A stretch of DNA of 38,669 nucleotides from Candidatus Taylorbacteria bacterium RIFCSPLOWO2_01_FULL_45_34b (GTDB taxonomy: Bacteria > Patescibacteriota > Minisyncoccia > Phycocordibacterales > DSPV01). The position numbers and the translations under genes are program-made. The stretch covers positions 2,024-40,692 of the forward strand of contig MHRY01000013.1 in NCBI GenBank assembly GCA_001822675.1. The letters are read 5' to 3'. The notes beneath the pieces were generated by a model. The model made no database searches and was not told where the DNA came from. It worked only from the letters and a program-made list of their open reading frames with translations. This document shows positions 5,731 to 8,452 of this stretch, piece by piece. Every line of letters starts with the position of its first letter. Within the stretch, counting starts at the first letter, position 1.

Positions 5731-5756
5731 AATGGTAGCTAAAAAGTTTCGCGGGT

Positions 5757-5789
5757 AAAAAAGCGCTAGAATATGATGATTCTAGCACT
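5757..5789 (-). terminator. Rho-independent terminator at the RT stop; identical copy at 8420-8452
   Basis: Minus strand GCTAGAAT-CATCAT-ATTCTAGC followed by GC then T6; 33 nt identical to 8420-8452. Confidence 0.8.
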
Positions 5790-6774
5790 ATTTCAGGAAT
5801 TTTGAAATTTTATTTTGCAAACCATATGCATTACCATGCTTCAATAATCCAATATATGAAATGATACTTTGAGGTGTTGGATTCTCGTTAATTCGCTTTA
5901 TCATTCTTCTTTTTGTACTTGTCCTCAAAACTCGATGTTTTGGAAAATTCACCCAGCCTAAAAAATCAACTCCAGAAGCAACTGTTTGTATGAAAACTTT
6001 GTCAGGGTGTAATTCTAGTTTTAACTTCTCATGTAGATATCTTACGATATATCGTAAGACAACTTTCAACTCTTTTTTATCTCCAGATAAAATCACAAAA
6101 TCATCAGCATACCGAATGTAGTATTTAATTTTTAAATTATGTTTAACATATTGATCAAATTCGTTCATGTAAATATTGACTAAAAGCTGGGAGGTCAGGT
6201 TACCGAGTGGTAATCCTATTCCCTTATTTGTGGAGCAAAAACTTTCTACTATATTCTGGATAAGCCACAAAATATCTTTGTTTGGTATGTATTTGTCGAG
6301 AATTTGATAAAGCAAAAAATGGTCAATGTTCGCAAAGAATTTTTTTATATCACACTTAAGCACCCACACTGTTTTTGTATTATTTTTACTAACACGAAAA
6401 AAATATCTTCTGAATGTTTCCACTGCTTTATGTGTGCCCTTCTGAAGTCGGCACGAGTACGAATCAGTCGCAAATACTCTGTCAAAAAACGGGTACAACT
6501 TTCTATACAAGGCACGATGAAGCAGTCTGTCCCTCACACTTGCCTTGTGAATATCACGGGGTTTCGGGTCAGAAATTTTGAAATGCTTATACGGTTCATG
6601 CTGATATGTCTTATCTTTAAGCTCTTGATGCAAAGAGAAAATATTGTCCATAAGCCGTAATTGAAATTCCTGTACATCCTTTTTTTTCCGCTTCCCTTTT
6701 ATAAACTCTTGCCATGCACCAAGTAAATTCTCGATAGAAATGATATCGTTATATGTATGAGCGAATTGAATCAT
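5788..6774 (-). CDS. DGR reverse transcriptase
   Basis: 'YADD' catalytic motif; DGR-type 'GLPLGNLTSQ' motif instead of QGxxxSP; N-terminus 'NLLGAWQEFIKGKRKKKDVQEFQLRLMDNIFSLHQELKDKTYQHEPYKHFKISDPKPR...DRLLHRAL...DSYSCRLQKGTH'; adjacent TR/VR pair. Confidence 0.95.
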   Translation of the reverse strand: MIQFAHTYNDIISIENLLGAWQEFIKGKRKKKDVQEFQLRLMDNIFSLHQELKDKTYQHEPYKHFKISDPKPRDIHKASVRDRLLHRALYRKLYPFFDRVFATDSYSCRLQKGTHKAVETFRRYFFRVSKNNTKTVWVLKCDIKKFFANIDHFLLYQILDKYIPNKDILWLIQNIVESFCSTNKGIGLPLGNLTSQLLVNIYMNEFDQYVKHNLKIKYYIRYADDFVILSGDKKELKVVLRYIVRYLHEKLKLELHPDKVFIQTVASGVDFLGWVNFPKHRVLRTSTKRRMIKRINENPTPQSIISYIGLLKHGNAYGLQNKISKFLK

Positions 6775-7189
6775 TCTCCTAACGATACCCCCCCCCCGAG
6801 CACTTTTTCAACAGAAACTCGTTCCCGTTATTCTTAAACTTAAAGACGCCTATGGTTTGTGGCAAAAGTATCTGGCACATTTTCCCAAAGCTAATCGTTT
6901 TACTCTTGGATCAAAAATAGACGAGGTATTTCTTGCGACCATTGAATATTGCTTCCTTGCAAGTTACGCAAACGTACAGGAAAAAATGCCCCTGCTTAAT
7001 CGTTGTATTTCAAGAGTTGACCTTCTTAAGTTATTGCTTCTCCTTGCATGGGAAATCAAAGCGCTTGATACAAAAAAATATATTCATCTCTCCGAACACA
7101 TGGTAGAAGTAGGTAGAATGCTTGGAGGCTGGAGACGTCAACTCGTAAACAAAACTCCCCTACCTAAAAAGGAAGGGGAGAAATCGTGA
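6757..7189 (+). CDS. avd: Avd-like four-helix-bundle accessory protein of the DGR; ORF interrupted at a C10 homopolymer (6788-6797)
   Basis: Track ORF 6857-7189 'WQKYLAHFPKANRFTLGSKIDEVFLATIEYCFLASY...DLLKLLLLLAWEIKALDTKKYIHLSEHMVEVGRMLGGW' is Avd/four-helix bundle. The frame extends upstream (QQKLVPVILKLKDAYGLWQK) without an in-frame ATG; an ATG at 6757 joins it only with an 11th C. Confidence 0.8.
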
Positions 7190-7194
7190 TAGTG

Positions 7195-7320
7195 GCGCAC
7201 CGCGAGGAACCGGTAGTTGCCATTCCAGTCATTGTCAAACCAATTGAGGTTGAGCTTGCGCTTCGAGTCATACTTGTCGAGGTAGAGGACGTTGCGATTA
7301 CCGTTGACCTTCGCGACGGA
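7195..7320 (-). repeat. DGR template repeat (TR), 126 nt
   Basis: Ungapped 126-nt match to 7654-7779. By manual alignment all 21 mismatches are at TR adenines (coding strand). Encodes the N-rich peptide SVAKVNGNRNVLYLDKYDSKRKLNLNWFDNDWNGNYRFLAVR. Confidence 0.95.
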
Positions 7321-7647
7321 GCTTTGTATAAAATACCTTCCAAACCACTGCCTGTCGAAAACTCCGCAGTAGTCTCAAGGCTGTATCGTATTCGTGATGT
7401 ATAGTATCACCTAGTATTTCACACCAACTGTCTCTGATTTTTTACGGAAACCAAGTGGCACTCTTCGGGAAGCCATAACCGCCCGAACTCTCACCTCTTG
7501 GGTTGCGGACAAATTACCCAAAGCCGTAACCTTGGATTTTTCATTTGTCACTTTTATTTTAGCAAAAAAAATGACCCTCCAAAACTTTTTCAAGTTTCAA
7601 AGGGTCAAAGTGCCTAAGGGCAAAACCGAGAGACAAGGTGCAGAGAA

Positions 7648-8283
7648 CTATTTGCGCACCGCGAGGAACCGGCAGTAGCCACCCCAGCCACAGTCAAACC
7701 AATGGAGGTAGAGCCGGCGCCCCGAGCCACACTCGTCGAGGTAGAGGACGTAGCGATCACCGTGGACCCGCGCGACGGAACCAAGTTCTACAATTGGAAA
7801 CTCTCTCTGCACTTGGGGATTGTGTTCCCCGAAAGCCAGAAGTTCTTCAGTCGCCGCCGGTCGGTAGCCTTCTTTATCCATTTCTTTGATGGCGTCTTCT
7901 GACGAAATGTACCGCCCGAAATGAAACAGGGCGGATTCCACCTGACGGCTTCCTATACCTTTTATCGGAAATCGCTCTTCAGTGATCTCGGAATTCGTCC
8001 AGTCGTACTTGCCCGCCCCAATCATCTCCGGAAGAGGGCGACAATTGACAGCGAACGTGTATGGAGTGATTGTAGGTTTCAGAATGGGCGGGGTAATTAG
8101 AGGAAGACCAAGAAGTGCACGAATGCCATCGCGTTTCGTTGTATCAAGACTTCCGGCCTTGGCGGCTTCGAAAACGTCGGTGATAATGCCGGAGCAAATC
8201 GCCGTCTGCAGTTCCTTGTCCGTAAGCTCTTTTTGTTGAGCAAGCTCGAGCAATTTGCCTGCCTGTTTGAGGGTTGCGTTCAT
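7648..8283 (-). CDS. DGR target (variable) protein with C-terminal VR, probable C-type-lectin/FGE-like fold
   Basis: C-terminus 'YVLYLDECGSGRRLYLHWFDCGWGGYCRFLAVRK' contains the VR. The ORF extends to 8367; ATG at 8283 (MNATLKQAG) is the more plausible start. Confidence 0.9.
   Translation of the reverse strand: MNATLKQAGKLLELAQQKELTDKELQTAICSGIITDVFEAAKAGSLDTTKRDGIRALLGLPLITPPILKPTITPYTFAVNCRPLPEMIGAGKYDWTNSEITEERFPIKGIGSRQVESALFHFGRYISSEDAIKEMDKEGYRPAATEELLAFGEHNPQVQREFPIVELGSVARVHGDRYVLYLDECGSGRRLYLHWFDCGWGGYCRFLAVRK
7654..7779 (-). repeat. DGR variable repeat (VR), 126 nt, at the 3' end of the target gene
   Basis: See TR; 21 of 31 TR adenines substituted, 0 of 95 other positions. Confidence 0.95.
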
Positions 8284-8419
8284 CGCAAGCCTTTCTGTGT
8301 TTTGCAGTCCGTGTTTAGCGGGTGCGTTGATTATCAAAACCAGCGTCATGCCGATTTCTACTGACAAAATACTAGCATAAGTAGGCTATATTTGTCAATA
8401 GCCGTTGCAGAAACGTATT

Positions 8420-8452
8420 AAAAAAGCGCTAGAATATGATGATTCTAGCACT
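8420..8452 (-). terminator. Rho-independent terminator of the 129-aa gene; identical to 5757-5789
   Basis: Same 33-nt sequence AAAAAAGCGCTAGAATATGATGATTCTAGCACT. Confidence 0.75.

Follow-up and report, generated by a model that had tools for sequence, protein, structure and literature searches.

The locus at positions 5757–8452 of the window (the whole 38,669-nt stretch of contig MHRY01000013.1 analyzed here, from Candidatus Taylorbacteria bacterium RIFCSPLOWO2_01_FULL_45_34b) raises a question: why should a diversity-generating retroelement (DGR) that bears the marks of recent use carry an accessory gene, Avd, that is out of frame with its own conserved start codon? The TR (7195..7320, minus strand) and the VR (7654..7779, minus strand) were aligned without gaps over 126 nt. 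All 21 mismatches fall among the 31 coding-strand (minus-strand) adenines of the TR, and none at the other 95 positions; on that strand, the changes are A>G (13), A>C (4), and A>T (4), and the identity ends abruptly beyond each edge of the match. One-sided, adenine-only change between TR and VR is the hallmark of DGRs. The strictly A-directed divergence claimed in the original prediction was thus exact, and the recent activity that it proposed is supported, because TR and VR do not have a single non-A difference. The element is, with near certainty, a DGR of the Patescibacteria type. A 6-bp stem begins within the final bases of the VR; BPP-1 requires a stem-loop just downstream of its VR.

The DGR-type reverse transcriptase (RT) was also as predicted. 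It is encoded at 5788..6774 on the minus strand (328 aa from the ATG at 6774), matched RVT_1 (8.4e-25), and contains YADD and GLPLGNLTSQ; the motifs of DGR RTs are YxDD and LPxGxxxSQ. No DGR-RT model was found among the NCBIfam matches of this protein, and a group II intron model of NCBIfam matched it below that model's cut-off. On the minus strand, the order of the parts is target, TR, antisense Avd, RT; Avd is therefore head-to-head with the RT, on the strand opposite that of RT, TR, and target. The element had been called complete, and it does have all of its parts; in the assembled sequence, however, the conserved ATG and Avd are in different frames (OFF).

That the VR forms the C-terminus of a protein of ca. 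211 residues was confirmed down to the final residues: the target gene (7648..8283, minus strand) encodes 211 aa from the ATG at 8283. For the family of this protein, which had been put forward as a check, Pfam gave nothing (zero matches), and a C-type-lectin-like C-terminal domain is predicted from the AlphaFold model (mean pLDDT 80.4), for which all 50 Foldseek matches listed were C-type-lectin-like, albeit weak (best E 0.061, none ≤0.001). A sequence search of the PDB returned three weak matches (best E 0.078), which were taken as chance. A terminator-like hairpin lies downstream of the target gene (7572..7607, minus strand), and a promoter-like site, TTGACA-18-TAGTAT, was located by consensus match only at 8369..8398 (minus strand). 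Two identical copies of a 34-bp imperfect palindrome (5756..5789 and 8419..8452) surround the element as direct repeats; the 33-bp core of the palindrome was found nowhere else in the genome when up to 3 mismatches were allowed. Flanking palindromes were considered as a general DGR boundary and rejected: a repeat was found in 4 of 78 loci, and two of these (L020 and L059) were artefacts that fall inside the RT gene's own end.

The genome assembly (777,556 bases in 50 contigs, 91% complete) contains further DGR parts. Another VR of the same TR, the search for which had been suggested, was found on contig C35, inside a 229-aa gene (L009 5631–6320). It differs from the TR at 18 of 114 comparable bases; TR adenines account for 16 of these, and the other 2 are at the far 5' edge. 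No stem was seen by eye after this VR. The C35 target gene sits just past groES/groEL-like genes and has a 12-N gap within its VR. A second DGR is located on contig C42 (L010 2671–5117). Its RT is 51% identical to that of the window, and it has its own antisense Avd behind nine C's, i.e. the same design; it also has a TR-like stretch, and the neighboring target gene has N's at the expected place of the VR. Two target-like genes, on C42 (L010 7262–8056) and C25 (L015, C25:6148–6366), have 3' ends that are 90% identical with clustered differences, and no TR for this pair was found in the assembly. By eye, the promoter and leader of the window target (8300–8398; TTGACA, then GTAGAAATCGGCATGACGCTGGTTT) look like those of the C25 target (L015 ~1010–1070). 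There is also a weak third Avd-like match at C16:3800–4102 (L236; E 1.6e-4). The original prediction had overlooked the second VR and the second DGR, as well as the antisense orientation of Avd and a poly-C tract at 6788–6797.

This tract is where Avd loses its frame. The conserved ATG at 6757, which lies opposite a His codon of the RT, opens a leader (6757..6787, plus strand) that reads MSELNHSPND up to a C10 homopolymer (6788..6797, plus strand), the proposed site of frame switching by slipped-strand mispairing. On the RT strand, the tract is a G10 run located 13 nt upstream of the RT ATG. The Avd body (6797..7189 with its stop codon, plus strand) is in frame +1 relative to the ATG. It matched the bAvd profile above its cut-off (2e-12) and DivGenRetAVD below the curated cut-off (5.2e-18; 65.3 bits vs. 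80). In the body frame, no ATG, GTG, or TTG precedes the family-matching region, and the frame runs into a stop 9 codons upstream of the body. The Avd-like ORF reported beside TR and VR therefore stands as a family match, but it is on the opposite strand and has no in-frame start codon. Judged from the sequence, Avd is OFF in this assembly; 9 or 12 C's would restore the frame. Only four C/G runs of at least 8 bases occur in the whole genome: one at this junction, one at the C42 junction, and two in intergenic positions (C18 and C32).

The junction was surveyed in relatives in two ways. The RT-based sample comprised 87 loci. Besides the window and C42, it took in 5 loci from same-family genomes and the best 80 of the 423 that belong to named genomes; one genome was sampled per species. 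Two loci (L075 and L091) were left out because no antisense Avd was found, the RT being at the locus start, so that 85 were counted; L101–L106 were also omitted, being fragments of the same or further RTs or, in the case of L104 and L105, having a same-strand Avd. The best 80 loci were from Patescibacteria wherever a lineage was named (Zambryski-, Yanofsky-, Nomura-, Adlerbacteria, and others), and the window RT is 60–68% identical to theirs, with the exception of L090 (59%). A non-triplet simple repeat with a unit of 1, 2, or 4 bases is present at the RT/Avd junction in 83 of the 85 loci: poly-C of at least 7 in 76, a dinucleotide (CT or CA) in 5, and a tetranucleotide (AACC or ACGA) in 2. 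The two repeat-free loci, L042 and L099, both have an in-frame ATG. In the 668,048 bases of these loci, 75 C/G runs of at least 8 are at the junction and 2 are elsewhere. The units differ between L062, with (AACC)10, and L080, with (ACGA)9, which are 87% identical over 800 nt. Among all junctions, no near-identical loci that differ in tract length alone were found; the sole 100% identical pair, L040 and L191, is evidently one genome taken twice. Among 17 loci of viral RT relatives, Avd was matched in 9, antisense in the four closest and same-strand in the other five, and a junction repeat was present in 0 of the 9.

The second sample was independent of the RT. The NCBI Avd model was applied to 379 genomes of the phylum, 181 of which matched, and the first 110 by rank among the matches listed were taken (30 that were given as loci, followed by 80 more). 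Ninety-one were head-to-head with an RT; 10 with another RT arrangement and 9 without an RT were left out, and L191, the duplicate of L040, was retained in these counts. A repeat is present in 45 of the head-to-head Avds: an ATG is in frame in 12 of them, 2 have a different start codon, and 31 lack a start. Of the 46 repeat-free Avds, 45 have an in-frame ATG and 1 a GTG (in-frame ATG 12/45 vs. 45/46, Fisher p 1.2e-13). The units seen at junctions were C, CA, CT/TC, GA, AACC, ACGA, and AGGAC, and one G run was found at a locus that is not head-to-head (L127). No unit of 3 or 6 bases was present at any junction examined. A function of the tract through its own sequence, as poly-G RNA or a proline run, was considered and rejected, because units of 1, 2, 4, and 5 bases take the place of poly-C. 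Three repeat-free head-to-head Avds with an in-frame ATG (L164, L166, and L207) have what seem to be decayed CA or C tracts and are perhaps locked ON.

The reading that we prefer, to which we assign a probability of roughly 80% on the strength of sequence comparisons, is that the DGR mutator is under the control of a phase-variable switch (a contingency locus), in which slippage of the repeat would toggle Avd and, with it, mutagenesis. The TR transcript would be copied into cDNA by RT and Avd, with errors at its adenines, and replacement of the VR by this cDNA would diversify a lectin-like surface in both the 211-aa target and the C35 target. Translation of Avd would start at the ATG within the antisense of the RT start and proceed through the C tract into the body. 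Slipped-strand mispairing during replication would add or remove repeat units, placing the body in or out of frame; in-frame cells would make Avd and mutate, and out-of-frame cells would not, retaining the gene and the ability to revert. We infer three elements of this scheme: that slippage occurs in living cells, that mutagenesis ceases with Avd OFF (as is known for BPP-1), and that switching is of benefit.

The leader appears to be translated, to judge by its constraints. The Avd ATG lies opposite an RT His codon, which 13 of the 85 loci lack at that position; in the 72 loci with this codon it is always CAT (72/72), while the CAT:CAC ratio at the remaining His codons of these RTs is 693:460 (p 7.5e-16). 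Between the ATG and the tract, the frame of the ATG is free of stops in 68 of 71 loci, compared to 13 and 14 for the two alternative frames, although this stretch partly overlaps the RT coding sequence, itself a constraint. Relative to the conserved ATG, the body is in phase 0, 1, or 2 in 8, 36, and 27 of the 71 loci; the in-frame fraction (8/71) is below one third (p 2.4e-5). The number of ON loci varies with the ATG chosen, being 21 of 85 if any ATG within 75 nt is used. A shortage of in-frame loci fits selection for the OFF state and is not predicted by neutral slippage. On the RT tree, phase changes numbered 30 (shuffled mean 28.1) and tract-length changes 34 (shuffled 32.7), as at random; changes of repeat type were clustered (6 vs. 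8.9 shuffled, with 0 of 300 shuffles as low). The absence of phylogenetic signal counts as weak support, given how far apart the RTs are (deep divergence, median end branch 0.39).

The same phases bear on programmed ribosomal or transcriptional slippage, which would yield a fixed, small share of Avd from an out-of-frame gene and would require no heritable switch. Homopolymers can slip in both transcription and translation, and the body is out of frame by the conserved ATG in 63 of the 71 loci, as this explanation would have it. It calls for a single fixed phase, however, and phases 1 and 2 are both common, which is why it was not adopted as the main reading; moreover, CA, AACC, ACGA, and AGGAC units typify DNA slippage rather than slippery heptamers, and Avds without a repeat are in frame in 45 of 46 cases. 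We consider it improbable, if the best of the alternatives.

The condition of the OFF loci accords with a reversible switch. Among 11 pairs of OFF Avd bodies, differences at codon positions 1, 2, and 3 numbered 211, 138, and 525, a pattern which shows, at the level of codons, purifying selection on bodies that are out of frame. An A-directed TR/VR pair was found in 68 of the 85 loci, at a near-constant distance from the RT, and none was detected in the other 17. Of these pairs, 51 belong to loci whose conserved ATG leaves Avd OFF; they are changed at 851 of 1362 A sites, compared to 25 of 3228 non-A sites; the latter count is low partly by construction, as the scan admitted at most 1 non-A mismatch per pair. 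Inactivation of Avd in BPP-1 drops retrohoming to ~1e-9, according to an excerpt of PMC12875486. Since Avd is needed for retrohoming in that reconstituted system, OFF loci with A-mutated VRs were probably ON formerly.

An alternative that is slightly less probable than programmed slippage in our estimation places the function of the tract on the RT strand, as part of a 5' leader or as promoter spacing, with Avd starting non-canonically after the tract. In the window, a weak promoter-like site, TTGAAA-18-TATCGT (6782..6811, minus strand), has the G10 run in its spacer. Of 109 poly-C loci (L191 being left out of this count), 28 have a −10-like TANNNT immediately after the tract, compared to 0–12 at offsets of 1–39, and an RT ATG is absent between the tract and the RT body in 28 of 83 loci; because of the latter, the tract may also belong to the coding or control sequence of the RT. 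Against an exclusive role of this kind, no conserved TTG was found upstream of the tract in the poly-C loci, and the conserved Avd ATG, the open leader, and the in-frame ATG of repeat-free Avds would be left unexplained. A role on the RT strand may hold alongside the Avd switch. In its broadest form, the combination would place targeted hypermutation under the control of localized hypermutation across much of Patescibacteria, with the junction repeat setting the Avd frame and also tuning RT transcription through the adjoining −10-like box. We put this forward tentatively, as a possibility with the odds against it; if it were true, a single slippage event would switch both mutator proteins and produce a burst of A-directed diversification in a small fraction of cells. 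That the DGR is an ordinary one, its Avd having decayed to a pseudogene or its frame having been broken by errors in sequencing or assembly, is very improbable: homopolymers are error-prone and the sources are metagenome assemblies, but the tract is at one position in 83 of 85 loci across many projects, the Avd bodies are intact and under purifying selection, and di-, tetra-, and pentanucleotide repeats take its place.

If the phase-variable switch is real, automatic gene calls might miss or truncate Avd in many such genomes. The regulation of natural DGRs is called "an exciting frontier" in the 2026 paper excerpted above (PMC12875486), and a frame switch in Avd would be an answer, for uncultured bacteria, that is both concrete and open to test: tract lengths can be counted in existing metagenome reads and compared with VR diversity. 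Neither phase variation through repeats nor the occurrence of DGRs in bacteria of this kind is new. In open-access titles and abstract openings, no work was found that joins the two, and an earlier description elsewhere is possible; for Patescibacteria and phase variation, the same scope yielded only work on archaeal DNA methylation. In the available part of PMC10053308, the phase variation discussed is that of the Bordetella host surface, not of the DGR.

One point of reference is the DGR of Bordetella phage BPP-1 (mtd-avd-TR-brt), which likewise has RT, Avd, TR, VR, and A-directed change. Its target has a lectin-like fold, as is predicted for the window target, and in both the VR is at the end. 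In BPP-1, avd is ahead of the TR and on the same strand (PMC12875486, in excerpt), whereas in the window it is antisense, lies between TR and RT, and is behind a frame-shifting repeat. The DGRs of Candidate Phyla Radiation bacteria and DPANN archaea are of the same kind, with several per genome, and the excerpt of PMC10907252 that describes them does not mention a frame switch in Avd. With the SSR contingency loci of Haemophilus, Neisseria, and Campylobacter, the locus shares the principle that tract length decides between ON and OFF, and it has features by which SSR phase-variable genes are recognized: a non-triplet repeat near the 5' coding end, a frame set by the length of the repeat, and relatives in mixed states. 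The lav gene of NTHi is mostly OFF (PMC9022572, in excerpt). Those loci are mostly concerned with the cell surface or DNA modification, while the gene switched in the window would be part of a targeted mutator. A further likeness is to phase-variable DNA methyltransferases (phasevarions), in which, as far as the excerpted literature describes them, one tract likewise switches a system of wide downstream effect; the output of a phasevarion is methylation, and that of the window element would be sequence change in chosen genes.
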